Assembly (NCBI GenBank): GCA_021324885.1
Contig: JAJPIF010000025.1
Location: 234,713-298,712 of the forward strand
Source: Pseudomonadota bacterium
GTDB lineage: Bacteria > Desulfobacterota > Binatia > Binatales > Binataceae
Direction of reading: 5' to 3'
DNA: 64,000 bases
Numbering within the stretch: the first letter of the stretch is position 1; each line of letters opens with the position of its first letter. The notes beneath the pieces are model-generated. The model saw only the letters and a program-made list of their open reading frames with translations. It did no database searches and was not told the DNA's origin. Of this stretch, positions 7,443 through 29,767 are shown piece after piece. Both the position numbers and the translations under genes were made by a program.

Positions 7443-8507
7443 CTACCACTGGAGCAGGAGCAGTTCCGAACAAAAGCCAGGCCCCATCGCGAGCATCAAG
7501 CCCAGTGTGCCATCCGGCGGCTGATGGCTGATGAGCAGGTCTTCGAGCACCAGCAGGACCGAAGCCGAGGAAAGGTTTCCGTATCGCGCCAGGCATCGCC
7601 AGGACAGCTCAAGCTCGCGATCGCGCAAGCGCAAGGAATCGGCGATCGCGTCAAGCACCTTGGGACCGCCGGTGTGGATGATCCATCTCCCAATGTCGGC
7701 GCGCCTGAGGTTTTGGCTGGCCAGGAAACCGTCCACGTCGCGAGCGAGGCGGCAGCGAATGAGATCAGGTAAATGCGCCGAAAGCACGATTTCGAAGCCC
7801 CGCTCCGAAATGCTCCATCCCATAATGCCTTCAGTGTCCGGATAAAAGAATGATCGCGTCGCCGCGATGCGCGGACCCGCTGCCGCGCGCCGCGCTCCCG
7901 AAACGATCGCCGCTACCGCGCCATCAGCAAACAGGCCGGTGGAAATGAGATTCGCCATCGAGAGATCGTTGCCCTGAATCGTCAGCGAACAGAGTTCGAC
8001 CGCCAGCAGCGCGGCGGTTTGATCCCGGTAGGCCCGCACATGGTCGGCGGCCCGCGTCAGGCCCAGGGCTCCGCCGACACAACCCACGCCGAAGATCGGC
8101 GTGCGCTTGATGTCCTCGCGCAGGCGCATCCGATTGATCAGCCGGGCATCCAGCGAAGGACTGGCGATACCGGTAACGGAAACCACGATCAGCGCGTCAA
8201 GGTCGCGCCGCTCCAGTCCGGCTCGTCCCAGGGCGCCGGCCAACGCCGTCTGTCCCAGTTCCTGCGCCGCTTCGATCCAGGCCGCATTGCTTTCCCCGAA
8301 GGTTTGGAAATGCTCGTAGCGCTCCAGCGGATAGGCCAGATGGCGGTGATCGACTCTGGCGTTTTGATGCAACCGGTCAAGCAGCGCGGGCCGGTCAAGA
8401 CGCTCTCTCCAATGGTGCTTTAGAGCGGCTGTGATCGTCCGCTGATCGTAGCGGTATTCAGGCAGCGCACTGGCAACCCCAACAATCCGCCCAGCTTCAG
8501 ATGACAT
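7443..8507 (-). CDS. Type III polyketide synthase (chalcone/alkylpyrone synthase-like)
   Basis: A 354-residue homodimeric thiolase-fold ketosynthase that condenses an acyl-CoA starter with malonyl-CoA. The full catalytic triad is visible: Cys143 in 'FGVGCVGGALGL', His278 in 'WIIHTGGPKVLDAI', Asn311 in 'YGNLSSASVLLVL'. Length and the 'MGPGFCSELLLLQW' C-terminus fit bacterial enzymes that make alkylresorcinols or alkylpyrones from fatty acyl-CoA. The methyltransferase and isoprenylcysteine-methyltransferase-like genes often found beside such enzymes are absent; instead an outer-membrane protein and a PAP2 phosphatase follow. A near-consensus sigma-54 promoter lies about 250 bp upstream. Product unknown. 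Confidence 0.93.
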   Translation of the reverse strand: MSSEAGRIVGVASALPEYRYDQRTITAALKHHWRERLDRPALLDRLHQNARVDHRHLAYPLERYEHFQTFGESNAAWIEAAQELGQTALAGALGRAGLERRDLDALIVVSVTGIASPSLDARLINRMRLREDIKRTPIFGVGCVGGALGLTRAADHVRAYRDQTAALLAVELCSLTIQGNDLSMANLISTGLFADGAVAAIVSGARRAAAGPRIAATRSFFYPDTEGIMGWSISERGFEIVLSAHLPDLIRCRLARDVDGFLASQNLRRADIGRWIIHTGGPKVLDAIADSLRLRDRELELSWRCLARYGNLSSASVLLVLEDLLISHQPPDGTLGLMLAMGPGFCSELLLLQW

Positions 8508-8753: not shown

Positions 8754-8769
8754 CGCAAACATGTTGCCA
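8754..8769 (-). promoter_or_regulatory. Sigma-54 (-24/-12) promoter for the type III PKS operon
   Basis: Read on the minus strand: TGGCAACATGTTTGCG. It has the invariant GG and GC separated by exactly 10 bases and matches the TGGCACG-N4-TTGCW consensus except at positions 6, 7 and the last. Predicted start near 8744, upstream of the polyketide synthase. A TTGAA/TTCAA dyad array is centred on its main dyad about 94 bp upstream of the predicted start, the usual place for an NtrC-type enhancer site. Confidence 0.72.
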
Positions 8770-8808: not shown

Positions 8809-8845
8809 TTGAAGGATTCAAGCGTTGAAGTTCAAAATTTTGAAC
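8809..8845. promoter_or_regulatory. Enhancer-like array of TTGAA/TTCAA half-sites (PKS side)
   Basis: Five alternating half-sites occur in 37 bp: TTGAA (8809), TTCAA (8817), TTGAA (8825), TTCAA (8831), TTGAA (8840). The last two form the perfect 16-bp palindrome GTTCAAAATTTTGAAC at 8830-8845. Spacing to the sigma-54 promoter fits an upstream activator site. Related elements occur at 12629 and 14397. Confidence 0.65.
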
Positions 8846-8934: not shown

Positions 8935-9621
8935 TCAGTGCCCCGCCGGCTGATCTGGCGCTGGCAACACGTGACGTGCATTTTTGCCCTGCACTTGCGA
9001 AATCCAAACGATATGTCCGAATCCGGTTACGTCGATCTCGACCTGTTTTGACGCGGTCAGGAAGAGCATGCTCGGGTCTTCCATTCCCCACGAGACGTAA
9101 GGGACAACAAAATGCGTGTTCACCGTGAAGTCATCGCCATGGCGCGCGATTGTAAGCGGCAGCGTCAGCTCGTGGCTGGAGCCGTGAATCGCGATTAAGC
9201 CGACAAGACTGACGGGAAGCGAGGACTGCCCGCGCGGGACATCCCCGAATTCGGCCCGGCGCGGGATAAAAGTGATCTCCGGGTATTTATTGACTTCGAG
9301 GATGCTGTTCCTCATCCGGAAATCGCGCATCGAATTGCCGCTTTGGCCGCTGCCCGCATCGATTGTAATTGCTCCCGATGCCTCGCCCGTTGCCAGCGCA
9401 ACGGTAATCGCCGCGCTCTTTAAATGAAACGTGCCATGGACAGTGTGCGCGGCCGTATCCAGCCGGAAGGCGATCGTGGTACGCGCCGGGTCCAGAACGA
9501 TGCGCGCCGCCCTGGAGTCCTGACCCGCCGCGGACGCCGGGCCGTGCGTCCCTAAACCAAGGACCACGGCCAGTGCCGAGATCAGGATAATCGCGCGCAG
9601 TTGCAAAATTCTGCTTAACAC
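8935..9621 (-). CDS. YceI-family periplasmic protein
   Basis: A 228-residue protein with a signal peptide (to about 'GPASAAG') and a YceI-type lipocalin-like barrel: 'LDPARTTIAFRLDTAAHTVHGTFHL', 'GAITIDAGSGQSGNSMRDFRMRN', 'YPEITFIPRRAEF', 'VSLVGLIAIHGSSHELTLPL'. YceI proteins bind long isoprenoid or fatty-amide lipids in a tunnel. It starts 33 bp after the ABC permease gene, so it belongs to the exporter operon; a lipid-carrier role for the exported compound is a reasonable inference. The C-terminal His/Gln-rich tail after 'DVTGFGH' is unusual and of unknown use. Confidence 0.9.
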   Translation of the reverse strand: MLSRILQLRAIILISALAVVLGLGTHGPASAAGQDSRAARIVLDPARTTIAFRLDTAAHTVHGTFHLKSAAITVALATGEASGAITIDAGSGQSGNSMRDFRMRNSILEVNKYPEITFIPRRAEFGDVPRGQSSLPVSLVGLIAIHGSSHELTLPLTIARHGDDFTVNTHFVVPYVSWGMEDPSMLFLTASKQVEIDVTGFGHIVWISQVQGKNARHVLPAPDQPAGH

Positions 9622-9654: not shown

Positions 9655-11361
9655 CTATTGAAGAAACCGGGACGAAGCTGCAACTCCCACTGTCAGATAG
9701 ACGAGTCCAAGACCAAAAGTCATCGCCGCAGGCCACAACGCAGTCGACAGCGGAAGACCACGAATCATCAAGTCGTTGAAGGCGCGCATCGTCCACGTGG
9801 TAGGCACCCACAGCGCCGCAGTGCGCATCCAGGAGGGCTCGAAACCAATTGGCCACCAGCATCCACCCACAGCCGACATCGCCATCGCCGCCATCGCCCC
9901 GATCGGCAGGACGGCGTCGCGGGTGCGGGCAACACAGGCGATGACCAGGCCGAAAGCCGCGGCCGCGAAGCTGACTGCCGCGCCAGGTAGGAGCAGCGCC
10001 CATGGATGAGCGCCCAGGGCGATTCCAAACAGCAGCCATCCGAAGGCGAACAGCACGATGAGTTGCATCAGGCCAATGACGAAGCGTGCCAGCATCTTAC
10101 CCATCAGAATCCCGCCAACCGTTGCCCCGCTGACCTGCAACCGCTGCAGCGTCCCCCAGTCATGTTCGTCAATCAGACCCACCGAAACGCCCCACAGCAC
10201 GTCGATCAAAAGAAAGGTTATCCCGAATCCGGGAACGTACTGATCAAAACTGTTGACCTCGAGTTTGCCGGGCATCAACGACCGATCGCGCCATCCCAGG
10301 ACCCCGGGAAGGACGGGCGTGGACGCCTGCGGTATCAGGTCGGCGAGCGCGATTTTCAACTCCGGAAGCGATACGCGCGGGAACCGGATGTTGAGGCCGG
10401 TCGACGGCACCGGCCAGGCCGGCGAGGAGAAGGAGAGTTCGATCGGACTGGAAAGCGCCGCCAACTGGTCCTTGCCGGGCGGCGCCGGCCAGCGCGGTGG
10501 TGTCGGAATCCGGCCGGCATACGAGCCCGCCGCCGCCTTGAGATCGGCAAACCAGCGGTCGAAATCCCGTTCACTGGCCTGCAGTTGGCGCAGGTACTGA
10601 TCGACTGCCGTAAGGGCCTGACGTTTGGCTGCCAATTTATCGGCAAGTTCGACACGTGCCGCCGCGATCGAGCGCTCAACCGCCGCCTGGGTCTGCCTCT
10701 GCAGGGATTCGACGTCCCGGCGAATCTGATCCCTGACGGCGCTCTCCATCGCCAACCTGGACCGCGTAATATTCTGGCGGTAGGTGGCCAGTTCGATCTG
10801 AATGGTTTTTTCCGCGTCAGCCAGGCGTTCGAGTCGTACGCGCAGGGCGGCGGTATTTTGCGCCAGCGCGGCTTGAGCACGGCGGTGCGCGATCGCCGTG
10901 ATTTGGCGTGAAAGCTCGTTCAGACGCAATTCGATCATCGACGCTTCAAGACGCTTGATTGGATCGACATAGACCAAAATGAGCGGACTCAGTCCCGACT
11001 CAAATCCCGCGCTGGTGCCTGCCGGTATAACGATCGCCAAGGGTGCGCGCTCGTGGGTCATTACATAGCTGCGCGCCAGATGGAGATCGGCAACGGGCGC
11101 AATCTCGATCGACGGCTGATGGGACACTGCTTTGATCAGCGCCTGGGCTATGGTCCCGTGATCCTGATCGACAATCGGGATTACGTAAACGCGATTCGCC
11201 GGCTGGCCATAGATATTGCGCAATGAGAAACCCGCGACCGCGATTATCACGATTGGGGCCAAAAACAGCATGAACAGGGCGGAGCGATCTTTCAGCAGCA
11301 CCCTGAAGTCGTTGCAGAAGATAAGAGCGGCAGTACGCTGCATCAATGCCGGGACGCGCAA
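9655..11361 (-). CDS. ABC-2 type transporter permease
   Basis: A 568-residue membrane protein. Transmembrane helix 1 lies at about residues 28-48 ('LFMLFLAPIVIIAVAGFSL'), followed by a large periplasmic domain rich in coiled coil (residues about 150-260, many Arg/Ala/Gln heptads), then five helices from about residue 370 to the end ('FGITFLLIDVLWGVSVGL', 'FVIGLMQLIVLFAFGWLLF', 'PWALLLPGAAVSFAAAAFG'). This is the layout of ABC2_membrane_3 half-transporters exporting drugs or lipids. The ATPase gene lies 129 bp upstream on the same strand. The substrate is unknown; the nearby polyketide synthase suggests its product. Confidence 0.9.
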   Translation of the reverse strand: MRVPALMQRTAALIFCNDFRVLLKDRSALFMLFLAPIVIIAVAGFSLRNIYGQPANRVYVIPIVDQDHGTIAQALIKAVSHQPSIEIAPVADLHLARSYVMTHERAPLAIVIPAGTSAGFESGLSPLILVYVDPIKRLEASMIELRLNELSRQITAIAHRRAQAALAQNTAALRVRLERLADAEKTIQIELATYRQNITRSRLAMESAVRDQIRRDVESLQRQTQAAVERSIAAARVELADKLAAKRQALTAVDQYLRQLQASERDFDRWFADLKAAAGSYAGRIPTPPRWPAPPGKDQLAALSSPIELSFSSPAWPVPSTGLNIRFPRVSLPELKIALADLIPQASTPVLPGVLGWRDRSLMPGKLEVNSFDQYVPGFGITFLLIDVLWGVSVGLIDEHDWGTLQRLQVSGATVGGILMGKMLARFVIGLMQLIVLFAFGWLLFGIALGAHPWALLLPGAAVSFAAAAFGLVIACVARTRDAVLPIGAMAAMAMSAVGGCWWPIGFEPSWMRTAALWVPTTWTMRAFNDLMIRGLPLSTALWPAAMTFGLGLVYLTVGVAASSRFLQ

Positions 11362-11490: not shown

Positions 11491-12438
11491 TCAATTGGAC
11501 TCGACCACTGGATCGCGCAACCCATGCCCGGTCAAGCTCATAAAGGCATCGGAGAGATTCGGGCTGTGGACGCTGAACTCCAGCACTCCGGCGCCGCAAG
11601 CGCGCGCCCGTTGCAACAATTCGCTTAGCTGTCCGAGATCGGCGAACTGGAGCACAGCCTTGCCCGGCTCGCAGGCAAGTTCACGAACGCCTGCGAGCCC
11701 CGCATACCATCCTGAAGGCGCCTCGCCGTGGAAGCTGATCTCCAGGCGGGGCTGCCCGCCAGCCAGAGCGATAATCTCCCGCACTGTTCCGCCGGCAATC
11801 ACCTGGCCCCGGTCGATTAGCAAGACGCGATCGCAAATGCGCTCAACTTCCTCCATGTAATGGGTGCTGTAGATAATCGCGGCGCCGGTCTGTGAGAGGT
11901 TGCCGACGATGCGCAGAATCTTTTCCCGTGACTGCGGATCTACTCCCACAGTCGGTTCATCAAGCAGCAAAACCTCGGGACCATGCACTATTCCGCAGGC
12001 CAGATTGAGCCGCCGCTTCATGCCTCCCGACATGGTCAGGACCGCGTCGTTGGCGCGCTCCGAAAGCCCCACCGCTTCGAGAGCGGCCATGGCGGCTCCG
12101 CGTGCCGCCCGCGCAAGTCCGTGAAAGCGGGCGAACAACTCCAGGTTTTGCAGGGCGCTCAAGGAAGGATAAAGCGCCACCGATTGAGGAACGAAACCCA
12201 ACCGCCGGCGCAACGCGCCGGCTCGCTGTTGCGCATCGCATCCCGCGATTCTTACCTTACCACCATCGGGCTTGAGCACGGTTGCCAGGATCGAAAGCGT
12301 CGTGGTCTTGCCGGCACCGTTTGGACCGAGCAACCCCACGATTTCACCGGCGTTAACGCTGAAGCTGACATCGTCAACGGCCATGCGCGGCCCGTAGCTC
12401 TTGCGCAAGTGGGAGACTTCAACCAGAGCCGCATCCAT
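11491..12438 (-). CDS. ABC transporter ATP-binding protein
   Basis: A 315-residue ATPase with Walker A 'GLLGPNGAGKTT', Q-loop 'FVPQSVALYP', signature 'LTMSGGMKRRLNLACGI', Walker B 'VLLLDEPTVGVD' and H-loop 'IIYSTHYMEEVE'. The C-terminal ~90 residues match the DUF4162-like tail of drug/lipid exporters (NodI/DrrA type). I start at the ATG 12438; a TTG at 12453 in frame would add five residues. It is first in the operon with the permease and YceI, behind a sigma-54-type promoter about 100 bp upstream. Confidence 0.93.
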   Translation of the reverse strand: MDAALVEVSHLRKSYGPRMAVDDVSFSVNAGEIVGLLGPNGAGKTTTLSILATVLKPDGGKVRIAGCDAQQRAGALRRRLGFVPQSVALYPSLSALQNLELFARFHGLARAARGAAMAALEAVGLSERANDAVLTMSGGMKRRLNLACGIVHGPEVLLLDEPTVGVDPQSREKILRIVGNLSQTGAAIIYSTHYMEEVERICDRVLLIDRGQVIAGGTVREIIALAGGQPRLEISFHGEAPSGWYAGLAGVRELACEPGKAVLQFADLGQLSELLQRARACGAGVLEFSVHSPNLSDAFMSLTGHGLRDPVVESN

Positions 12439-12539
12439 CACGTTAGTTCGCAAGCTTTGAAGCAGCGATTAGCGTAGCAGAACAGATTGCCAACAAAAAT
12501 GTCATTTCCAAACTTGCGCGCGATCGCCATGCGCTTATG

Positions 12540-12555
12540 AGCAAAGGTCTTGCCA
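12540..12555 (-). promoter_or_regulatory. Sigma-54 (-24/-12) promoter for the ABC exporter operon
   Basis: Read on the minus strand: TGGCAAGACCTTTGCT. This equals the sigma-54 consensus TGGCACG-N4-TTGCW except for one base (position 6). Predicted start near 12530, about 90 bases before the ATPase gene. It diverges from the sigma-54 promoter at 12707 and shares the intervening dyad element. Confidence 0.75.
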
Positions 12556-12628
12556 TCGAGTCGGCGCACAAATATCACGGACATAGCGATTTTCGCGTAG
12601 TATGCAATTTCTGATCTGGTCATGCGAG

Positions 12629-12654
12629 GTTCAAAACTCTGGACGCGCGTTCAA
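12629..12654. promoter_or_regulatory. Shared enhancer-like element between divergent sigma-54 promoters
   Basis: GTTCAAAACTCTGGAC (12629-12644) matches 13 of 16 positions of the palindrome GTTCAAAATTTTGAAC found at 8830, and a second GTTCAA half-site begins at 12649. Its centre is about 96 bp upstream of the predicted aminotransferase start and about 106 bp upstream of the exporter start. Confidence 0.55.
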
Positions 12655-12706
12655 GGATCAGGACGCAATGACCGAAAAAATGCCGTTCCTGACGCAACAG
12701 GCGGCG

Positions 12707-12722
12707 TGGCACACCAGTTGCT
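12707..12722 (+). promoter_or_regulatory. Sigma-54 (-24/-12) promoter for the aminotransferase
   Basis: TGGCACACCAGTTGCT: GG and GC are 10 bases apart and only position 7 departs from TGGCACG-N4-TTGCW. Predicted start near 12733; the aminotransferase ATG is at 12760, preceded by GGTGAG. Confidence 0.75.
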
Positions 12723-12759
12723 GTGCGGTTTCAGGTTCGACCAAGCGGTGAGTTGACAC

Positions 12760-14136
12760 ATGGCTTTCGCAAAAAAATCCGAGGCTTCGCGCGCGCACGA
12801 TAATGGACATCTGTACCACGATTATGTGAATCCCCAGTGGGTCAAGCTGCTGGACGTGCTGGAGATGAATGTCACCTACACGCGGTGCGAGGGCGCCTCG
12901 TTGCTGACCTCTGACGGCCGCACGGTGTGGGATTTCCTTTCCGGTTACTGCGTCCATAATATCGGCCACAACCATCCCCGCGTCATCGCGGCACTGAAGG
13001 GAGAGCTTAATGCCTGCGGTCCGGCGATGCTGCAGAGCCATGTGTCCGATCTTGCCGGCGAGATGGCAGCGCGATTATGTGCCCTTGCGGGAGGCCGGTT
13101 GGCCAAAGTTTTCTTTTGCAGTTCCGGCAGCGAAGGAGTCGAAGCTGTCATCAAATTTGCCCGGGCTCATACCCGCCGCGCTGGCCTGCTGTATGCCGCC
13201 GGAGGGTTCCACGGACTTACCTGCGGTGCGATGTCTCTGATGTCAGCTCCGTTTTGGACGCAGGGGTTCGGACCGTTCATTCCCGGAACCGAGGCGGTTC
13301 CCTTCGACAGTGCCGAGGAACTGGAAAAGAAACTGGCCACCAAAAAGTACGCCGCTTTCATCACCGAGCCGGTCCAATCTGAAAGCGGGGTCATCGTGCC
13401 GTCTCCCGGCTATCTGCGCGACGCGCAGGCGCTGTGCCGGCGCTACGGTACGCTGTTTGTCCTCGACGAGGTCCAGACCGGGATGTACCGCAGCGGGCCT
13501 TTTTTGGCCGCACATCATTACGGGGTCGAGCCCGACATGGTCGTGATGGCGAAGGCGCTGAGCGGAGGATTGATCCCCTCCGGAGCCGTGCTGATGTCCG
13601 AGGCGGTCTGCGACTCGATTTACAGTTCGCTGCGGCGCGCCATAATCCACACTTCAACATACAGCGAAAACAGCCTGGCGATGCGGGCCGGACTGGCGAC
13701 GCTCGACGTGCTTCAGGACGAGGGCCTGGGCGAACGCGCCCGGATAATGGGAGTGGCGCTGCGCCAGCAGCTTGCCCAACGTCTGGCCGGCTACGAAATG
13801 GTCGCGGAGGTCAGGGGACTCGGAATGCTCTCGGGGGTCGCCTTCAGAGCGCCGAAAACCCTGCGTTTACGAGTGCTGTTCGAGGCGTTCAGTAGAATCC
13901 ACCCCGCGATGTTCGGTCAGGTCCTGGTGCGGCGCCTGTACAAGAAGGGCCTCCTCACCCAGATTTGCGGCAACAATTTTATGGTGCTCAAGGTCGCACC
14001 GCCGTTGATGGTCGAAGACGGCGTCGTGGAAAAATTTATAACGGACCTCGTCGAGGTGGTCGATCTGATGCACGCCAAGGCGTCGTATTGGACCGAGGCG
14101 CTGGGAATTGCACGGCGCGCGCTCAGCGCAATCTGA
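12760..14136 (+). CDS. Class III PLP-dependent aminotransferase
   Basis: A 458-residue fold-type I aminotransferase of class III (ornithine/putrescine/acetylornithine branch). 'FFCSSGSEGVEAVIKFAR' is the phosphate-binding SGSEA-like loop, Asp236 in 'LFVLDEVQTGMYRSG' contacts the PLP ring nitrogen, and Lys265 in 'MAKALSGGLIPSGAVLM' is the Schiff-base lysine. The longer C-terminal part (from 'RLRVLFEAFSRIHP') suggests an acyl- or amine-acting enzyme rather than ArgD. It has its own sigma-54 promoter and is followed by the two-component genes. In this context it may install an amine on the polyketide or its precursor; that is inference. Confidence 0.92.
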   Translation: MAFAKKSEASRAHDNGHLYHDYVNPQWVKLLDVLEMNVTYTRCEGASLLTSDGRTVWDFLSGYCVHNIGHNHPRVIAALKGELNACGPAMLQSHVSDLAGEMAARLCALAGGRLAKVFFCSSGSEGVEAVIKFARAHTRRAGLLYAAGGFHGLTCGAMSLMSAPFWTQGFGPFIPGTEAVPFDSAEELEKKLATKKYAAFITEPVQSESGVIVPSPGYLRDAQALCRRYGTLFVLDEVQTGMYRSGPFLAAHHYGVEPDMVVMAKALSGGLIPSGAVLMSEAVCDSIYSSLRRAIIHTSTYSENSLAMRAGLATLDVLQDEGLGERARIMGVALRQQLAQRLAGYEMVAEVRGLGMLSGVAFRAPKTLRLRVLFEAFSRIHPAMFGQVLVRRLYKKGLLTQICGNNFMVLKVAPPLMVEDGVVEKFITDLVEVVDLMHAKASYWTEALGIARRALSAI

Positions 14137-14456
14137 TACCCCCGGGCGCACCTGCCAGCGCTTTGCTCAATCCGCCGAAGCAGGTATCGGCCCGTCGCAA
14201 AAGCTCGCTGGTTTCGCCACTGGCCCGGCTTGCGCAAAGGCAGCATCGCGCCGCCGTCGGCCCGTCATTCGAATCGCGCTGAATTATACGAGTTAGCTAC
14301 AAGTGCACTGCGCCTTGGTGGGCTCCCACCTTTCGCTGTGGCATCGGTCTCGGCGGCGCGCAAGCCGTTGCCAATCATGTTGGACTTTTTCGGGTGTTGA
14401 AAGGTTCAGCCGTTATGGTTCAAGATTTTGAACAGTTGTAGTCTGCCTGTCCGATA
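14137..14456. other. Intergenic region before the histidine kinase
   Basis: About 320 bases with no gene that I can support. The right half repeats the layout of the polyketide synthase control region: GCGCAA...GTTGCCAATC (14358-14375), then TTGAA (14397) and the near-palindrome at 14418. The -24/-12-like element has only 9 bases between GC and CC, one too few for sigma-54, and points left toward the end of the aminotransferase gene. Confidence 0.5.
14397..14433. promoter_or_regulatory. Third TTGAA/TTCAA dyad element, upstream of the histidine kinase
   Basis: TTGAA at 14397, TTCA at 14404 and GTTCAAGATTTTGAAC at 14418-14433 (one mismatch from a perfect dyad, one base different from the 8830 palindrome). 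It lies 24 bp before the kinase start codon, so it could mediate autoregulation of the kinase-regulator operon. Confidence 0.55.
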
Positions 14457-15797
14457 ATGAGAGATTTCACACCATGGCGGCCTTTGGGCTCCTTGGCGGA
14501 CCATGCCCGAAGACTCGTCCGCCAATATACACCACCGAACTCGGGTTCACTGCGCCATCAGGGGTTGCTGTGCACTGCGCTCAGTCTTGGCCTGGTCGCG
14601 GTGTTTATCGCGGTCTGCCTGGCCACGATAAGCGAGCAAGTGCCGCTGGATCCGGCCGTGATGGCGACGCTGGTCGCCGGCTTCGCCGTCCATTTTACGC
14701 TTCTGTTCCGGTTCTATAATTGCGACACCGCAGCATTTGGACGGCTGAAGGCGCTGACGCTCTTCTCGATAGCATCGAATAGTGTACTGGTCGGAGTTCT
14801 ATCGATTCTGACCTGGGGACAGGACACGCAATATTATGTGTTAATGATCGTCCCCGTGATCCAGGCTGCCATCAGCCTTGACGTTTGCGGAACGCTCATC
14901 GTGACTCTGGTTTCCGTGTTCCTCACTTTTCTAGGCGCTTTTCCGCTCGATGCCGACGAATGGGCGGAAGCCGGCGCCGGATCGCTGATCTATACCCTGG
15001 TCGGGGTCGTGGTGTGGCTGCTGGTGAACAATTTACGCGACCGCGAAAGCCGTCTGAGGCAGAACATCGAGGAACTGGCGCGCACCCGGGAACGGCTCAT
15101 GGCGGAGGAAAAACTGGCCGCTGTAGGACGTCTCGCCAGTGCGATCGCGCATGAGATCCGCAACCCCGTCGCGATTATTTCAAGTTCGCTGCTGACCGCG
15201 GTGCGCAACGGCCATCGCAACTCCGAGCGCGACAAACTGTTTGAAATCGCGGCCAGCGAAGCGGCCCGGTTGGAACGTCTGACCAGCGATTTCCTGGCTT
15301 ATGCGCGCGCGCGCGAGTTGCGGGTCGATCGCGCCAACATGGCCGACACCCTTGAATATGTCGCGCAGATCGCTCGCGCTCATCCCGCCGCCAGCGGCAT
15401 CGAAATCGCCGTTGAAGGCGGCGCAAATATGGAAACCGATTTCGACGTCTTTCAACTGCAACAGGCGCTCCTGAACATGGTGATGAACGCCGTCGAGGCC
15501 TGCCAGGCGGGTGGGCAGGTGCGCTTGCGAGCCGAGGCCGATGGTTGCGGCACGCTGCGGATCGATGTCATCAATCCCTCCGAACCGATCGCGGCCGAGA
15601 CCATTACGCGCATGTTCGAGCCTTTTTTCACAACCAAGCCCGACGGCACCGGCCTGGGGCTGGCGATCGCCCGCAATATCGCGCGGGCGCACGGCGGCGA
15701 CCTGGTCTTGAGTTCTAACCAGCCGGGGCAAGTATGCTTCTCGATCCAAATCCCCCAGCGCCGCGAGAGCGGACAAAAGGAGAGGCGTGCATCGTGA
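14457..15797 (+). CDS. Membrane sensor histidine kinase (NtrB/AtoS type)
   Basis: A 446-residue kinase. The N-terminal 200 residues contain about six hydrophobic segments (for example 'GLVAVFIAVCLATI', 'TLVAGFAVHFTLLF', 'LIYTLVGVVVWLLVNNL') and no large periplasmic domain, so it probably senses a membrane or lipid signal. A short coiled linker leads to the H-box 'LASAIAHEIRNPVAIISSSL', the N-box 'LLNMVMNAVEACQ' and the G-box 'FFTTKPDGTGLGLAIARNI'. Its stop overlaps the next gene's start by 4 bp (GTGA), so the pair is translationally coupled. A dyad element sits just upstream. Confidence 0.93.
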   Translation: MRDFTPWRPLGSLADHARRLVRQYTPPNSGSLRHQGLLCTALSLGLVAVFIAVCLATISEQVPLDPAVMATLVAGFAVHFTLLFRFYNCDTAAFGRLKALTLFSIASNSVLVGVLSILTWGQDTQYYVLMIVPVIQAAISLDVCGTLIVTLVSVFLTFLGAFPLDADEWAEAGAGSLIYTLVGVVVWLLVNNLRDRESRLRQNIEELARTRERLMAEEKLAAVGRLASAIAHEIRNPVAIISSSLLTAVRNGHRNSERDKLFEIAASEAARLERLTSDFLAYARARELRVDRANMADTLEYVAQIARAHPAASGIEIAVEGGANMETDFDVFQLQQALLNMVMNAVEACQAGGQVRLRAEADGCGTLRIDVINPSEPIAAETITRMFEPFFTTKPDGTGLGLAIARNIARAHGGDLVLSSNQPGQVCFSIQIPQRRESGQKERRAS

Positions 15798-17203
15798 GTA
15801 AGGTGCTGGTGGTCGACGATGAAGCGAGCATGCGCCATATCCTGGCGCTGCATCTGCGCCATGAACGGTACGAGATAGTAGAGGCGTCGGGCGTGGAGCA
15901 GGCGCGCCGCGCGATCGAGCAGGAGACTCTCGACGCGGTCATCGCCGACCAGAAAATGAAAGACGGCGACGGAATGGAAGTGCTGGCCTTCGCGCGCAAC
16001 ACGGATCCCACGCTGTCCGTCGTTTTTCTGACGGCCTTTGCCACGATCGAGCTGGCGGTCGAAAGCATGCGCCGCGGGGCTTTTGACTTCATCACCAAAC
16101 CCTTCGTTCCGGAAGTGGTATTGGCCGCCACGCAACGCGCGATCGAGCACACGCAACTCCTGCGCGAGAACGTGCGCCTGCGCGATAGGGTTATCCGGTT
16201 GGAAGGTTCGGCGGAAATTGTGGGAAGCAGCCCGGCGATTCGCGAGTTGCGCAAACGCATCGCGCGCGTTGCGCCGACCAACGCCACCGTCCTTATCACC
16301 GGCGAAACCGGCAGCGGTAAAGAACTGGTCGCCCGCGCGATTCATCAGAACAGTCCGCTGGCGTCCAGACCATTGGTTGCCGTCAACTGTGCCGCCTTTC
16401 CCGACACGCTGCTGGAAAGCGAGCTGTTCGGTCATGAGCGCGGCGCCTTTACCGGCGCCGATCGTGCACGCGAAGGGCTTTTCGAGGCCGCTAATGACGG
16501 CATCTTGTTCCTGGACGAAGCCGGCGACATGTCGATTGCGGCGCAATCGCGGCTGTTGCGGGTGCTGAGCGACGGGTTGGTCACCAGGCTGGGGTCGACC
16601 AGGCCGCGCCGGGTCAACGTCAGGTTGTTGGTCGCCACCAATCGCGATCTCGAACGGCGGGTGCGCGAAGGGCTGTTCCGCGAAGACCTGTATTATCGGA
16701 TTGCGGTAGTGCCCTTGGCGGTGCCGCCGCTGCGGGAGCGCCGGGAAGATATCCCGCAACTGTGCCAGCTGTTCCTGGCTCAGGCCTCCCGCGATCTTAA
16801 AATCCCCCTGCGCACCATTTCGGCTGACGCAATCAAACTGCTGCTGGACTACAACTTTCCCGGCAACGTGCGCGAACTCAAAAACCTGATCGAGCGCGCC
16901 TGTATCCTGTCCACCGGCAGCGAAATCGTCGCCGACAATTTTCCCGTCACTCGGGCGAAACGAATCGACAGCGCGGATTTGACCGACTCCAAGCGCCAGC
17001 TCCAGCTGGAGGAACTGGCTGGAATGCTGCCTGAGTCCCTCGACCTGCGCCATTTCCTCGCCAGTCTGGAGAAGACCCTGATCCTGCGATCTTTGCGCGC
17101 CGCCCGCTGGGTCCAGGCGGAAGCCGCCCGCCGCTTGGGCCTGACCCGCAGCGACCTGTCATACAAGCTGGACAAGCACGGTCTGAAGAACTCGACGCCA
17201 TGA
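15794..17203 (+). CDS. NtrC-family sigma-54-dependent response regulator
   Basis: A 469-residue regulator: receiver domain (residues 1-120; acidic pair Asp8-Asp9 and phosphoacceptor Asp52 in 'VIADQKM'), AAA+ domain (about 145-380; Walker A 'GETGSGKE', the sigma-54-contacting 'GAFTGA' loop, Walker B 'ILFLDEAGDM'), and a C-terminal Fis-type helix-turn-helix 'EAARRLGLTRSDLSYKLDKH'. The GTG start at 15794 is chosen over an upstream in-frame ATG because AAGGAGAGG precedes it and the coding region of the kinase ends there. It is the best candidate activator for the three -24/-12 promoters found nearby. Confidence 0.94.
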   Translation: MSKVLVVDDEASMRHILALHLRHERYEIVEASGVEQARRAIEQETLDAVIADQKMKDGDGMEVLAFARNTDPTLSVVFLTAFATIELAVESMRRGAFDFITKPFVPEVVLAATQRAIEHTQLLRENVRLRDRVIRLEGSAEIVGSSPAIRELRKRIARVAPTNATVLITGETGSGKELVARAIHQNSPLASRPLVAVNCAAFPDTLLESELFGHERGAFTGADRAREGLFEAANDGILFLDEAGDMSIAAQSRLLRVLSDGLVTRLGSTRPRRVNVRLLVATNRDLERRVREGLFREDLYYRIAVVPLAVPPLRERREDIPQLCQLFLAQASRDLKIPLRTISADAIKLLLDYNFPGNVRELKNLIERACILSTGSEIVADNFPVTRAKRIDSADLTDSKRQLQLEELAGMLPESLDLRHFLASLEKTLILRSLRAARWVQAEAARRLGLTRSDLSYKLDKHGLKNSTP

Positions 17204-17321: not shown

Positions 17322-18728
17322 ATGGAAAGGGTTGACGGTGCAATACCGCCGGCGTGGTCGGCGCTGATTATTGATGACGATCCGGGCGTCCGTCAGTCGT
17401 TGCGCCTGTGCCTGGAGGTCGATAACGCGCGGGTACTGGGGGTCGCCACCTCGACCGGTGCGCTTGAAGCCCTGGAACGCAGCCGTTTTGACGTGGTCTT
17501 CCTCGATCTTTGGCTACAGTCGGAGTCGGGCCTCGACGTCCTGCCCGAAATCTTGCGCCGCCAGCCCGGTATCGGCGTCATCGTCATCACCGCCTTCGCC
17601 TCCTTCGAGACGGCGGTGGAGGCGATGCGTCTGGGCGCTGTCGATTATCTGCCCAAACCATTTACCCCTGAACAGGTCCGGCACGCCGCCCGGCGAGTGA
17701 TTTCGGCCAACGCGCTGCGCCGGCAGATTTCGGAGCTGCAGGATCGGCTGGAGGAGACCGAAGGCGAAGCGACCTTCGAGACCCGCAGCCCCGCTTACAG
17801 TGCGTTTCTGCAAACGGCCGCGCGCGCGGCGGCGTCCGATTCCGTGGTGCTCCTGCAGGGCGAAAGCGGGACCGGCAAGAGCGTTTTGGCCCGCTGGATT
17901 CGCCAGCACAGCAGGCGCTCTCGCAGTCCGTTCGTCACCGTGCATTGTCCGATGCTGTCGAGCGAACTGATGAGCAGCACGCTGTTTGGCCATAAAAAGG
18001 GCGCGTTCACCGGCGCCGTCTCCGACGCGATCGGCAAGGTCGAAGCGGCCGAGGGCGGCTCGCTGTTCCTCGACGAGGTCTCCGAGCTGAGCGCCGACGC
18101 GCAGGCTCGTTTACTGCGTTTTCTACACGACCGCCGCTTTGAGAGGCTGGGCGATCCGGCCGAACGCAAGGCCGACGTGCGTCTGATCGCTGCGACCAAC
18201 AAAAAGCTGGAGGATGAAGTCAAGGCGGGCCGCTTTCGCGAGGACCTGTATTTCCGGCTTAACGTAATCGCGTTAACCCTGCCGCCGCTGCGCGAGCGGC
18301 GCGAAGACATAGTCCCGCTGGCGCACCATTATTTGCGCTATTTTCAAAGCCGCCAGGGCCGCCCCGGATTGACCTTTTCCTCACGTTGCACGGATGGGCT
18401 TGCGCGTTACGCCTGGCCAGGGAATCTGCGCGAACTGCGCAATGCCGTCGAGCGCGCAGTGATTCTTTCTCCCTCCAACGTCCTGGAGCTCGAGGATTTA
18501 GGCATCGAAGCCGCCCCTTTGCTGTCTTTATCTGAAGCAGACGGCGGAGTGGCGGGGGAGCGGTGCGCAACGCCGGTGCTGGGCGAAAACTTCTCGGTTG
18601 CGGAAATCGAACGCGAGCACATCGCGCGCGTGGTCGCCCGCGCCCCTTCGCTGGAAGCCGCAGCGCAGATTCTGGCAATCGATTCCACGACCTTGCAGCG
18701 CAAACGCAAACGTTACGGGCTTGCCTGA
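17322..18728 (+). CDS. Second NtrC-family response regulator (AlgB-like)
   Basis: A 468-residue regulator: receiver domain with Asp18-Asp20 and phosphoacceptor Asp62 ('VVFLDLWLQS'), AAA+ domain with Walker A 'GESGTGKS', 'GAFTGA' loop and 'LFLDEVSEL', and a C-terminal helix-turn-helix 'EAAQILAIDSTTLQRKRKR'. The final motif (TLxRKRKRY) and the adjoining HAMP/PAS kinase are the layout of the AlgB-KinB pair that controls exopolysaccharide genes in pseudomonads. Orthology is not proven. It is 118 bp from the previous regulator and 36 bp before the kinase. Confidence 0.92.
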   Translation: MERVDGAIPPAWSALIIDDDPGVRQSLRLCLEVDNARVLGVATSTGALEALERSRFDVVFLDLWLQSESGLDVLPEILRRQPGIGVIVITAFASFETAVEAMRLGAVDYLPKPFTPEQVRHAARRVISANALRRQISELQDRLEETEGEATFETRSPAYSAFLQTAARAAASDSVVLLQGESGTGKSVLARWIRQHSRRSRSPFVTVHCPMLSSELMSSTLFGHKKGAFTGAVSDAIGKVEAAEGGSLFLDEVSELSADAQARLLRFLHDRRFERLGDPAERKADVRLIAATNKKLEDEVKAGRFREDLYFRLNVIALTLPPLRERREDIVPLAHHYLRYFQSRQGRPGLTFSSRCTDGLARYAWPGNLRELRNAVERAVILSPSNVLELEDLGIEAAPLLSLSEADGGVAGERCATPVLGENFSVAEIEREHIARVVARAPSLEAAAQILAIDSTTLQRKRKRYGLA

Positions 18729-18764
18729 GGCGGCCGCCATCGGGAGTGCGGCCACACGCCGTCG

Positions 18765-20645
18765 ATGAAGATCCATCATCTGCAAACCCGATTCATTCTG
18801 GCCGGCGGGCTGCTGGTCATGACAACTGTTGTCTCCGGTCTGTGGAGCGCCTGGACCTTCTCGCGTCTGAGCACGGTGGCTGGCCAGACTCTGGAAACCA
18901 GCCAGAAGATCAACGACCTTACCGCGGTATTATCCAATGCCCTGGAGCGCGAGGACGACGCCTTTCTGCTGGCCATGAGCGGCGAGCCTGAACACGCCCG
19001 GCAAAAACTGCAGGCCGAACGCCGGCGCTTTAACGCCGCCTATGCCAGCCTGGTGAGCACGCTGTCCATGGCGGACGAAAAAAAAGCGCTCGCCGCGCTA
19101 TGGCGGCACGTGCAGGAATATCGCGCGGCTGGCGAGGCGTTGATGGCGAAGGCGGCGAGCGGCAATCTGACCACGATTTACCAGCATGGCGTCAATCCCG
19201 CCTTGCGCCGCGCGGTGGCCGACTGCACAACTATCCGAGAGCTGAATTTCCGCTCGATGGAACGCGCGGGACTGCTGGCGCGCGACGAAGCGCGCGGCGC
19301 CACCCTGATGGTGACCGCGATTTCCAGCGTCGCTCTGGTGATCTCCACGCTGGTCGCGGTTCTGCTGGCGCGCTCCGTTTTGCTTCCGGTGCAGGAATTG
19401 GGCAATTCGCTCGAAGCTTTGCGCGCGGGCGATTTCGATCGGCGCGCGCGGCTGATTTGCGCCGACGAATTGGGCCAGCTTGCGCTTGGATTCAACCGCA
19501 TGGCTGAAGCCTTGTCCGACTTCCGCCGCTCCAACCTGGGCGAGGTGCTGCGCGCCAAGGAGGCGCTTGAAGCCACGATCGCGGCTTTGCCCGACGCCGT
19601 GCTGGTGGTCGAACCGGGCGGCGCTATCGTTGCACGCAATCCCCTGGCCAAAGCCGTGCTGCGGGAATTGGGAGCGGAGCAGGTCGGCCTGATCGATGAT
19701 TTGCCATTTTCCCATCACGGCCTGGACGCGGTCCGCGCTGCGCTGCGCGGAGAGGCCGCCGTCCAAACCAGGGCTGAATTGACGCGCGCGCTTTCAGTTA
19801 ACCTGAACGGACGGCGCCGCAAATTCATGCTCACTGCAGTGCCAATCCCGGAATTTCACCAGGGACGGTATGGGGCGGTGGCGGTGCTTTACGATGTTAC
19901 CGACTTCGCCCATCTCGACGAATTACGGATGGAACTGGTGGGGGTCGCTTCGCACGAGTTGAAGACCCCGCTTACCACCTTGCGGATGAATCTGCTGATG
20001 CTGGGCGAGGATGCCTGCAACCTGAGCGATCGCCAGCGCGAGATCCTCAGCATGGCCCTGCTCGGATGCCAGGAGCTGGCCAACACGATCGACGAACTGC
20101 TCGATCTGACTCGAATCGAGGCGGGACAGCTCCGCCTCTCGCGCGAGGTTATCGACTTGTACGGCGTGATCGAACGCGCGATGGCCTCGATGCGCCAGCG
20201 CTACGAGGATGCAGACATAAAGCTGCGCCTGGAGCGCCAATGCTCCTGCGCGGTGGTGCAGGGCGATCCAGTGCGGCTGGGCATGGTGTTTACCAATCTG
20301 CTCGGCAATTCGCTCAAGTACACGCCGCATGGAGGCCTGGTCTGCATCAGCGTTGCGTCGGCGCAAAATGCGGCAGGCGGCGACGATTCGATACTGCAAA
20401 TTGCCGTAACGGACACGGGCACGGGAATTCCCGCCGCCTATCGCGCGCGCGTTTTCGACAAATTCTTCCGTGTCGAGCAACAACTGGAAAACGGCGGCTC
20501 CAAAACCAAGGGCGCGGGTATCGGACTGTATCTTTGCCGCCAGATCATCGACGCGCACGGCGGTGCCATCTCATGCGAACCCGCTGAAAACGGGTTCGGC
20601 ACGCGTATCACGCTGGTTCTGCCCGCCTTTCACCCCGCCGCCTGA
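18765..20645 (+). CDS. HAMP/PAS sensor histidine kinase (KinB-like)
   Basis: A 626-residue kinase: transmembrane helix 1 (about 10-30), an alpha-helical periplasmic sensor region (about 35-175), helix 2 (about 182-203), HAMP ('PVQELGNSLEALRAGDFDRRA'-like region), a PAS-type segment (about 262-375, starting 'EATIAALPDAVLVVEPGGA'), H-box 'GVASHELKTPLTTLRMNLL', N-box 'GMVFTNLLGNSLKYTP' and G-boxes 'DTGTGIP' and 'GAGIGLYLCRQI'. The order matches KinB, partner of AlgB, and it lies directly behind an AlgB-like regulator. The signal is unknown. Confidence 0.93.
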   Translation: MKIHHLQTRFILAGGLLVMTTVVSGLWSAWTFSRLSTVAGQTLETSQKINDLTAVLSNALEREDDAFLLAMSGEPEHARQKLQAERRRFNAAYASLVSTLSMADEKKALAALWRHVQEYRAAGEALMAKAASGNLTTIYQHGVNPALRRAVADCTTIRELNFRSMERAGLLARDEARGATLMVTAISSVALVISTLVAVLLARSVLLPVQELGNSLEALRAGDFDRRARLICADELGQLALGFNRMAEALSDFRRSNLGEVLRAKEALEATIAALPDAVLVVEPGGAIVARNPLAKAVLRELGAEQVGLIDDLPFSHHGLDAVRAALRGEAAVQTRAELTRALSVNLNGRRRKFMLTAVPIPEFHQGRYGAVAVLYDVTDFAHLDELRMELVGVASHELKTPLTTLRMNLLMLGEDACNLSDRQREILSMALLGCQELANTIDELLDLTRIEAGQLRLSREVIDLYGVIERAMASMRQRYEDADIKLRLERQCSCAVVQGDPVRLGMVFTNLLGNSLKYTPHGGLVCISVASAQNAAGGDDSILQIAVTDTGTGIPAAYRARVFDKFFRVEQQLENGGSKTKGAGIGLYLCRQIIDAHGGAISCEPAENGFGTRITLVLPAFHPAA

Positions 20646-20848
20646 GGCGCCGCTGCGCTCTTTTGACTGGCTGTCGATTTGGGAAAGCATCGCAGCCATG
20701 GCGCTGTTAACCGTCAGGCAATCTCCCCGCCATCAAACGGACACAATAACCAGCCTATTCAGCGAGCCGGGGCGGAAACGGCCGTTAAACCGGCCGGCGG
20801 CACATTAATTGAACTGGCGTTGCCTCTTGAACATTGGAGAGACCCTTG

Positions 20849-22126
20849 ATGAAGTCCGAAATCAACTTCCGCGCTGCTCTCATGGCATTGCTGGCGGGGG
20901 CGATTATTATGACCGGGACGCGGGCGGCGTCCGCAGGCGAAGTCATGACTTTGCAGCAGGCACTGAGACTGGCGGAGACGCACAACCCGCAGGTGCGTGC
21001 GGCGCGCTACCGATGGAACGCGGCAGAGCATCAGATTATCCAGAATTACACCCCGGCCGATCCCCAGTTTGCTTACACCAACTTCGACAGTTGGCGGGGC
21101 TTTTTGAAGGACTCCGGCTATCATAACATCACCGTGACGCAATCTCTCCAGTTCCCGGGAAAAGGACTTCTGCAAGGGACCACTGCCAGGCGCGCCGCGG
21201 ATATCGCCGCGCTGACGTACATGGCGGCCGTCAGGGACATAAGAGCGCAGGCCGAAACCGACTATTACCAGATCCAACTCGATCTGGCTCTGAACGATCT
21301 CATGGCTGAGAACCTGACCAATCTTAAGCGCGTGCTCAACGTCACAAAAATCGCATACATGGCAAATCTGGCGACGCAGGGCGACTTGATCAACGCGAAG
21401 TTCGCTCTGGAGGCCGATCGCGAATCGTTGCGTCAGCAGGCGGTCACGATTCTGAATGACAAAACCGCATTGAACATACTGCTGGCCCGGCGTCCCGACG
21501 AACCGCTGGAGGTCGATCGGAAATTCGACCTCGCCCAGTTCGAAGCCACGCTGGACCAGGTGATCGACAAGGCTGTGAGCAGCCGCCAGGAGATCCTGCA
21601 AGCCGCCCTCACGGAAAAAAATCAGCAGACCGCCGTGGCGTTGGCTCAACTGGAATACGCGCCCGACTACACCGTCGGTTTCGGTTTCGACCACTGGCTG
21701 ATTCCCAGCTTTGCGCCGCAGCCCAACCATACCGAAACCTGGAATGCGCTAATCAGTTTCAACGTACCGATTTTCTTTTGGGCCAAAAACGAGGATATCA
21801 AGCAGGCGCGCGAAAACCTCGATGCGGCGGGCGAGGACCTTGAATCAATCCGCCTGCAGACCGAGGGAACCGTTACCGCCCTTTACCGGCAGATTCTGCG
21901 CTCGCGCGAGACCGCGCTGCTTTATCGCAACACTCTCGTTCCGCTGGCTCAACAGGCATTTGAGGTAATGCTGGTCGCCTACGAAGGCGGCAAGACCGAC
22001 TTCACCACGCTCATCAGCACGTTGCGCCAATGGCATGACGCAAGGGCGACATATCTTCAATCCGTAAACGCGCTGCTGGCCGGCAAAGTCGCCCTGGAAC
22101 AAGCGGCCGGAGGCACCCTGCAATGA
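20849..22126 (+). CDS. czcC-like: TolC/CzcC-type outer-membrane efflux protein (operon 1)
   Basis: A 425-residue outer-membrane factor: signal peptide ('ALLAGAIIMTGTRAASA'), then two long helical OEP repeats ('TLQQALRLAETHNPQVRAAR' starts repeat 1; 'ALISFNVPIFFWAKNEDIKQ' is the typical strand between repeats). It forms the trimeric exit duct for an RND pump. ATG 20849 is preferred over the in-frame ATG at 20834 because GGAGAGACC precedes it. Its stop overlaps the start of the adaptor gene by 4 bp. A close paralogue lies at 27330-28616. Confidence 0.92.
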   Translation: MKSEINFRAALMALLAGAIIMTGTRAASAGEVMTLQQALRLAETHNPQVRAARYRWNAAEHQIIQNYTPADPQFAYTNFDSWRGFLKDSGYHNITVTQSLQFPGKGLLQGTTARRAADIAALTYMAAVRDIRAQAETDYYQIQLDLALNDLMAENLTNLKRVLNVTKIAYMANLATQGDLINAKFALEADRESLRQQAVTILNDKTALNILLARRPDEPLEVDRKFDLAQFEATLDQVIDKAVSSRQEILQAALTEKNQQTAVALAQLEYAPDYTVGFGFDHWLIPSFAPQPNHTETWNALISFNVPIFFWAKNEDIKQARENLDAAGEDLESIRLQTEGTVTALYRQILRSRETALLYRNTLVPLAQQAFEVMLVAYEGGKTDFTTLISTLRQWHDARATYLQSVNALLAGKVALEQAAGGTLQ

Positions 22127-23241
22127 GTCGGTGGCGAACGCTTTTGAGTTGCGGGCTTGCGCTGCTCGCGATGCGCCTGATCTGCGCCTGTGACAGCCCG
22201 CCCTCCGGCGCTGATATCGCGCCCCCTCCGCCTGCGGCGCGTCTGGTGCGTCAGGGCGGCACCGAAATTCTCGAACTGCAAAATGGGCGTCTGCCGGACA
22301 TGACTGTGAGCAGCGTAAAAGAGGTGTCCTTACCCGGTATCCTGGAGACGACCGGACAGATTTCGTTCGACGATCGCAAGGTCGCCAACATCATCTCGCG
22401 CGTCAGCGGAAGAATCGAACGGGTGTTTGTCTCCCAATGGGACCATGTTTCGCGCGGGCAGCCGATCGTGACCCTGTACAGCCCCGATTTCATGACCGCT
22501 GAAGCGGAATACCTCCAGGCCAAAGCGGGCGCTTCCACTCTTGCGGCCGGCGGAGCGGATAGTCAGCAGTTCGCGCGCTCGATGCTCGAAGCGGCGCAGC
22601 GCAAGCTCGAACTGCTCGGCGTCGAGCCCGCGCAGATCGCGCAGATCAGGTCGGCGGCTCCGTTCTTCACGATGCGCGCTCCGATCAGCGGCACGATTGT
22701 GCAGAATCAGGCCCTGCGCGGCTCCGCGGTCAACGCCGGCGATATCCTGTACTCGCTGGGTACGCTGGACGAGGTCTGGATAACGGCCGACATTTACGAG
22801 GACGAACTGGCGCGGGTTAGACCCGGACAGCAACTGCAAGCCGTCACCACTTCGTACCCCGACGAGGTCTTTCACGGCGTTATCGCACGCGTCAGTCCGA
22901 ATATCGATCCTAATACTCACACGGCGCAAATCCGTTGCACGGTAAAAAACCCCGGCAATCGGCTTAAACCGCAGATGCTGGCGGTCGTGCGAATCGTGGT
23001 CCGTCCGGGTCGGGCGCTCGTGGTGCCGCTGGACGCGCTGGTTTTCGAAACGGACAGCTATTTCGCCTATGTGGATGAGGGAGGCGGGCGGCTGGTCCGG
23101 CGCAAGGTTGACATCGCTTCCTGGAGCCAGCGCGGCTATGCCCGCGTGCTCGCCGGTCTCAATCCGGGCGAGCGCGTCGTGACCGGCGTCACCATGCAGG
23201 TCAACGAACTCTGGCACGAAGCGCACGGGGAGACCTCCTAG
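22123..23241 (+). CDS. czcB-like: RND efflux periplasmic adaptor, probable lipoprotein (operon 1)
   Basis: A 372-residue membrane-fusion protein of the CusB/CzcB type. The N-terminus 'LLAMRLICACDS' looks like a lipobox with Cys after ICA. The barrel-sandwich hybrid begins 'ISFDDRKVANIISRVSGRIERV', an alpha-hairpin follows ('FMTAEAEYLQAKAG...'), then 'APISGTIVQNQALRGSAV' and a beta-barrel ('VWITADIYEDELARVRPGQQ'). It bridges inner pump and outer duct. Start overlaps the upstream stop (ATGA) with GGAGG in front. Paralogue at 28613-29749. Confidence 0.92.
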   Translation: MSRWRTLLSCGLALLAMRLICACDSPPSGADIAPPPPAARLVRQGGTEILELQNGRLPDMTVSSVKEVSLPGILETTGQISFDDRKVANIISRVSGRIERVFVSQWDHVSRGQPIVTLYSPDFMTAEAEYLQAKAGASTLAAGGADSQQFARSMLEAAQRKLELLGVEPAQIAQIRSAAPFFTMRAPISGTIVQNQALRGSAVNAGDILYSLGTLDEVWITADIYEDELARVRPGQQLQAVTTSYPDEVFHGVIARVSPNIDPNTHTAQIRCTVKNPGNRLKPQMLAVVRIVVRPGRALVVPLDALVFETDSYFAYVDEGGGRLVRRKVDIASWSQRGYARVLAGLNPGERVVTGVTMQVNELWHEAHGETS

Positions 23242-23243
23242 CC

Positions 23244-29749: not shown

Positions 29750-29767
29750 AAGGGACCGCCAAGCTCT

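Follow-up and report, generated by a model that had tools for sequence, protein, structure and literature searches.

Sigma-54-dependent promoters that read away from each other are already known as a layout from the hyc/hyp and orp systems, and a 1990 paper by Lutz et al. carries divergent NtrA-dependent promoters in its title. For the hycA-hypA region of Salmonella, the sigma-54 boxes are tabulated at 2999639-2999622 and 2999753-2999770, with FhlA given as the activator of both operons (PMC3844500). The formate hydrogenlyase region of E. coli and Salmonella resembles the locus described here in having two outward -24/-12 promoters, one intergenic region and one activator. FhlA, however, is not known to be a response regulator, and the systems differ in activator type, in genes and in binding site. 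A second counterpart is orp1/orp2 of Desulfovibrio vulgaris, which has divergent sigma-54 promoters, palindromic sites and DVU2106 as the driver of both operons (PMC3897727). The divergent promoters and the palindromic activator sites are common to both loci; at orp, activator-site positions are given per promoter and IHF is required, whereas here one tandem pair lies between the promoters and the best IHF-consensus matches, 4 within 12436-12765, all have 2 mismatches. With such matches, an IHF site between enhancer and promoters was rejected as a candidate element.

The present locus lies in a 64-kb part (the window) of a 4.53-Mb draft genome of an uncultured bacterium. An exporter operon and an aminotransferase gene diverge there from one intergenic region (Table 1), and the identities that a preliminary description of the region had given them were borne out by domain matches to an ABC-2 exporter and a class-III aminotransferase. 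From gene order and strand, the YceI-domain gene is probably the last of the exporter operon. The RR1 gene follows about 1.6 kb past the aminotransferase gene, and the genome has one PF04552 match for rpoN (E 2.3e-62). The intergenic region is probably a bidirectional sigma-54 control region in which RR1, acting on shared dyads, would drive the exporter and the aminotransferase together.

RR1 resembles the NtrC/AtoC/ZraR family in its domain order, its GAFTGA loop and its adjoining kinase gene. It is unlike these regulators in forming a separate orthologue group, found at E 1e-150 in 11 of 41 genomes of the family and 11 of 148 genomes of the class, all from one family. A further comparison is offered by NtrX of the NtrYX system, whose binding sites have the form CAA-N2-5-TTG (PMC9223101). 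The dyad core here, CAA-N4-TTG, fits that form, and RR1 matches both the ntrC and the NtrX model below their NCBIfam equivalog cut-offs (432 of 558.6 and 364.7 of 600 bits, respectively). The site here is longer than that of NtrX, being a 16-bp dyad, GTTCAAANNTTTGAAC, and it occurs together with sigma-54 promoters; by the cut-off, RR1 does not count as an NtrX equivalog. RR1, its binding site and the gene set look newly described here, and we infer a new regulon with a new pairing of regulator and site. Titles and abstract openings of open-licence papers yielded none that joins a type III polyketide synthase to sigma-54, and nothing was found in the open-licence literature on an Acidobacteria type III polyketide synthase/aminotransferase gene cluster. 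For the type III polyketide synthase cluster of this uncultured lineage, the locus offers three sigma-54 promoters, a 16-bp site that is defined and an activator that is predicted.

Table 1. Genes and candidate control elements of the window
Feature	Position	Strand	Basis or remark
Type III polyketide synthase, chalcone synthase family	7443..8507	-	distant DpgA match below cut-off
Sigma-54-like promoter of the polyketide synthase gene, TGGCAACATGTTTGCG	8754..8769	-	weaker, 9.5 bits
Perfect dyad upstream of the polyketide synthase gene, GTTCAAAATTTTGAAC	8830..8845	.	sole exact genomic match
YceI-domain protein	8935..9621	-	domain match
Exporter permease, ABC-2 type	9655..11361	-	profile matches
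ABC transporter ATPase of exporter, DrrA/NodI-like	11491..12438	-	Pfam/NCBIfam
Sigma-54 (-24/-12) promoter of exporter operon (predicted), TGGCAAGACCTTTGCT	12555-12540, reads left	-	consensus, dyad composite
Shared enhancer site 1 (candidate), imperfect dyad, GTTCAAAACTCTGGAC	12629..12644	.	5/8 pairs complementary
Shared enhancer site 2 (candidate), weak dyad, GTTCAAGGATCAGGAC	12649..12664	.	3/8 pairs complementary
Sigma-54 (-24/-12) promoter of aminotransferase gene (predicted), TGGCACACCAGTTGCT	12707..12722	+	consensus, dyad composite
Class-III aminotransferase	12760..14136	+	best NCBIfam match PigE aminotransferase, below cut-off
Dyad just upstream of HK1-RR1, GTTCAAGATTTTGAAC	14418..14433	.	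sole one-mismatch genomic match
HK1, membrane histidine kinase	14457..15797	+	domain matches; hydrophobic segments
RR1, NtrC-type response regulator, proposed activator	15734..17203	+	GAFTGA loop, Fis-type HTH
RR2, second complete NtrC-type regulator	17322-18728		domain matches

The outward promoters and the dyads between them

Both sigma-54 16-mers reported in the preliminary description are present where it put them, correctly oriented and facing outward. Each has 10 bases between GG and GC and fits the sigma-54 pattern TGGCAC-N5-TTGC; compared with TGGCACRNNNNTTGCW, the rightward site has no mismatch and the leftward site has one, in the -24 element. The rightward site is among only three exact consensus matches genome-wide, and the leftward site scores 15.3 on an approximate sigma-54 matrix. 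None of 20000 first-order Markov shuffles of the 321-base intergenic region scored at least 15.2 on both strands; at least one site of 15.2 or more occurred in 0.6% of the shuffled regions, and one of at least 18.8 in 0.065%. Consensus matches as such are not enriched: at up to 2 mismatches the window has 15 where 19.4 would be expected, and at up to 1 mismatch the genome has 61, compared with 58 matches to the reversed pattern. Therefore, consensus counting alone cannot carry the promoter claim and was discarded as its basis. With transcription taken to start about 12 bases beyond the -12 element, the predicted leaders measure about 27 nt for the aminotransferase gene and 92 nt for the exporter.

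The elements between the promoters were only partly as first described. The sequence GTTCAAAA, proposed as a dyad, is not one in itself; it makes up the left half of a 16-bp dyad that is imperfect, and the second element, proposed as a half-site, is present as a whole weak dyad (sites 1 and 2 of Table 1). The two are imperfect tandem dyads with a centre spacing of 20 bp. When the window was scored with a matrix built from sites outside it, the dyads at 8830, 14418 and 12629 ranked first, second and third in the 64 kb, and all three are intergenic within the cluster. When up to 2 mismatches are allowed, the dyad has 12 places in the genome and the reversed control 7, site 1 being one of the ten two-mismatch places. 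The shared pair is the poorest of the promoter set (14.0 and 7.1 bits); of the 12 other promoters, 11 have a dyad of 16 bits or more. Two dyads, with centres 19-33 bp apart, occur at 12 of the 14 promoters examined, a figure in which the shared pair is counted for both of its promoters. A de novo dyad count in nine promoters of other genomes ranked AAA-N1-TTT first (9 against 0.17 expected) and CAAA-N2-TTTG fourth (3 against 0.02), with up to 6080 dyads tried and with possible inflation by intergenic A+T richness and by the relatedness of the loci.

The spacing of the pair is that of a sigma-54 enhancer, in which dyads, often in tandem, lie tens to 150 bp upstream: measured from its two centres, the rightward -24 element is 70 and 50 bp away and the leftward one 101 and 81 bp. 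Dyad-to-promoter distances favour a period of 10.3 bp (n=26, R=0.52, nominal p ~0.001, post hoc); with L064, L259 and the shared pair removed, the best period is 10.0 (n=18, R=0.46, p ~0.02). On both sides, the shared pair is 0.9-1.6 bp off the mean phase of the set. The sequences themselves show the sites, how these are spaced and that they recur with RR1 from genome to genome, and enhancer sharing is real in DNA terms, since two divergent sigma-54 promoters flank one dyad set. We infer that RR1 is the binding protein, that transcription starts at both promoters and that a single bound complex drives the two. The original proposal of a single activator driving exporter and aminotransferase through sigma-54 has gained support from rpoN, RR1, the recurrence of the composite (sigma-54 site plus dyad) and helical phase.

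An unlikely alternative holds that only the rightward promoter is genuine, with RR1 acting on the aminotransferase gene, the leftward 16-mer arising by chance and the exporter being read from a sigma-70 promoter. The parity of near-consensus sites with the reversed control (61 and 58) would suit it, as would the exporter homologues found at other sites in four of seven RR1 genomes, upstream of which the examined stretch holds no composite. Against it, the leftward site combines its score of 15.3 with a form, TGGCAAG-N4-TTGC, that recurs in L063, L069, L107 and L116; its start is 89 bp away from the dyad, in much the same phase, and it faces the exporter start. It is also one of three among the 61 near-consensus genomic sites with a good upstream dyad: the upstream dyad scores 14.1 at each of the two sites here and 8.7 at the next site of the genome, the third being a cytochrome c site at 24.4, whose own dyads are in that matrix and which scores 23.3 once own-genome dyads are left out. 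Moreover, exporter genes lie downstream of an RR1-type promoter, on the same strand, in L063 and L064.

RR1 and its recurrence with the composite

That RR1 would act on both promoters from the shared pair is consistent with its composition. It contains a receiver domain (PF00072), a sigma-54 interaction domain of the AAA+ type (PF00158) and a Fis-type HTH (PF02954), and with the GAFTGA motif these domains make it an NtrC-type enhancer-binding response regulator. Its orthologues are 67-80% identical, the next best being at most 52% among the matches listed, and the recognition helix RSDLSYK is intact in seven of eight aligned orthologues, with one change in the eighth. In addition to the 11 genomes found at the cut-off, a twelfth RR1 is present in G040 as a split copy; the search for split copies covered that genome.

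Thirteen loci were scored on a held-out basis, with the dyads of each locus excluded from the matrix, and the thirteenth, the cytochrome c locus L107, had been taken in for already having a composite. A sigma-54 site with a dyad was found in 11 of the 12 RR1 loci (composite scores 23.9-38.9) and in none of 10 other stretches. Of 48 cluster loci whose stretch contains no RR1 orthologue, 4 had such a composite (up to 27.3). This set leaves out two loci repeating G001 and G002, includes the aminotransferase cluster of G002, though this genome carries RR1 elsewhere, and draws 40 members from named genomes, where RR1 was sought within the examined stretch only, some stretches being short. Little changed when the close relatives L063 and L064 were both dropped, or when the own-genome dyads all were (scores 36.6-38.6). 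With all own-genome dyads excluded, the window contains exactly three composites, at 12707, 12555 and 8769, which are those of the aminotransferase, exporter and type III polyketide synthase promoters. Because it was this window that suggested the consensus by which the dyads were first chosen, the held-out tests lack full independence.

An exact composite pattern, drafted after several of its sites were known, gave 7 matches in the 41 family genomes and none in the reversed control. Three lie in the genome studied here, before the aminotransferase gene, the polyketide synthase gene and a cytochrome c gene at C29:192554, and the other four in G001, G027, G032 and G040. All five genomes have RR1 (split in G040), and the pattern matched only 5 of the 12 RR1 genomes. 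The dyad alone was rejected as a genome marker, because at up to 1 mismatch it occurs at 15 places in 6 RR1 genomes (control 9) versus 8 in 7 others (control 4) and fails to separate the RR1 genomes; only the combination of dyad and promoter does so. Among the RR1 loci, no composite was found in L219, a 5-kb contig, and L217 has only a weak sigma-54 site. The RR1 gene of L217 (G010) has an in-frame stop, that of L259 (G040) is split into two frames, and the G010 locus has the weakest sigma-54 site of the RR1 loci. The broken copies in G010 and G040 look as if the system were decaying there, or as if the assembly were in error.

It is distinctly improbable that the promoters are real and the dyads are bound by another activator, such as RR2 or a further NtrC-type protein. 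RR2 is a complete regulator of this type encoded next door, and the genome has 31 matches to RR1; the composite, however, tracks RR1 orthologues across the examined loci. In the loci searched, RR2 matched only RR1 copies (38-44%), and no clear RR2 or HK2 orthologues were found beside the clusters of 13 relatives. Its recognition helix also differs, and with no orthologue accompanying the clusters searched, RR2 was rejected as the activator. The second histidine kinase, HK2, is encoded with RR2 at 17322-20645, directly after RR1.

Still less probable is a role of RR1 mainly as a repressor, or at sigma-70 promoters, with the sigma-54 likeness being secondary. NtrX, an NtrC relative with CAA-N2-5-TTG sites, lowers the transcription of some targets (PMC9223101), and the dyad at 14418-14433 has no sigma-54 site of at least 8 bits within 350 bases. 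On the other side, RR1 keeps the GAFTGA loop, and the dyad centres lie 46-137 bp from the -24 elements at all 14 promoters, which were picked for having such an element. That promoters and dyads are both non-functional products of chance is hardly credible, in spite of the lack of an overall excess of consensus matches, given the joint occurrence of both sites in none of the 20000 shuffles and the co-occurrence of the composite with RR1.

Predicted targets and their arrangement in relatives

Activation by RR1 at the shared pair could proceed as follows. HK1 would phosphorylate and thereby activate RR1, whose dimers would bind both tandem dyads at 12629-12664 and then oligomerise. The complex would loop to sigma-54 RNA polymerase at both outward promoters (-24 at 12555 on the left and 12707 on the right), so that the exporter operon (ABC ATPase, permease, YceI) and the aminotransferase gene would be switched on together. 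RR1 may also act at the third promoter, upstream of the polyketide synthase gene, where the dyad is 76 bp from the sigma-54-like site, the site is on the strand of the gene and the start codon is 248 nt from the -12 element. The dyad at 14418 is a probable autoregulation site, through which RR1 would regulate its own operon with HK1.

Thirteen relatives from the same genus or family carry aminotransferase orthologues (65-71%), and their clusters have overlapping gene sets in differing orders. The divergent exporter/aminotransferase layout was seen in none of these 13 clusters and, among those compared, is found only in this species. Conservation consequently supports the system of regulator, site and promoter rather than this divergent pair. 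In all five of the aminotransferase clusters examined that adjoin HK1-RR1 (L062, L063, L064, L069 and L073), TGGCA-N6-TTGC lies between HK1 and genes running away from it, with dyads upstream. The same elements precede other genes in the RR1 loci of G002, G014 and G029, which have no adjoining aminotransferase gene. In the relatives examined, a single enhancer accompanies a single strong promoter; the cluster described here is divided into units, and its central enhancer is flanked by a promoter on each side.

Far from the cluster, a small c-type cytochrome gene (L107:8448-9107, equal to G000:C29:192447-193106) has a tandem dyad and TGGCAAGCGGATTGCT upstream. This gene is likely to be a further RR1 target in this genome, judging from these elements. 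The target is not conserved, in that 13 cytochrome c relatives have no composite upstream in the stretch examined. Among the dyads at up to 2 mismatches that lie outside the window, only C29:192553 and C10:215834 have a sigma-54 site scoring more than 9.5 bits no farther than 350 bases away. At the latter (G000:C10:215834-216190, in L101 and L108), another outward pair of sigma-54-like sites, 246 bases apart, accompanies a two-mismatch dyad, which by eye seems to lie within coding sequence.

A further set of 42 aminotransferase loci (L117-L158) came from named genomes, mostly Acidobacteriota by title. RR1 and dyads are present in only one of them, L117, a contig of G001. In the roughly 450 bases upstream of the aminotransferase gene, no dyad at up to 2 mismatches was found in the 40 readable loci of the other 41; L139 begins within the gene, and its upstream region is unreadable. 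One sigma-54 site of at least 11.5 occurs in these upstream bases, in L151 and facing away, and 10 of the 41 loci have a site of at least 13 anywhere in the stretch. In many of the Acidobacteriota records among L118-L158, a type III polyketide synthase or YceI gene is near the aminotransferase gene, and this gene grouping is a widespread pathway. Related clusters thus appear in many Acidobacteriota records, and the control described here appears almost only alongside RR1. This restriction makes it possible to test whether a regulator and its sites have come and gone jointly while the biosynthetic cluster around them was rearranged.

What the regulon might serve is more speculative. It is possible, though doubtful, that the polyketide synthase, the aminotransferase, the exporter, the YceI protein and the distant c-type cytochrome form an RR1 regulon for a redox-active, exported aromatic lipid, with HK1 sensing the redox state of the membrane or its quinones. 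The match of HK1 to the RegB/PrrB model is below the cut-off and begins in the membrane part. If this were true, the shared enhancer would link the making of an aminated quinone-like compound to its export, both the product and the signal being speculative. Just past the two-component genes, at 20834-26360 and 27330-32890, are two successive gene sets, each for an outer-membrane factor, an HlyD-type adaptor and an AcrB-type pump; with identical order and nearly equal lengths, they look like a duplicated efflux system.
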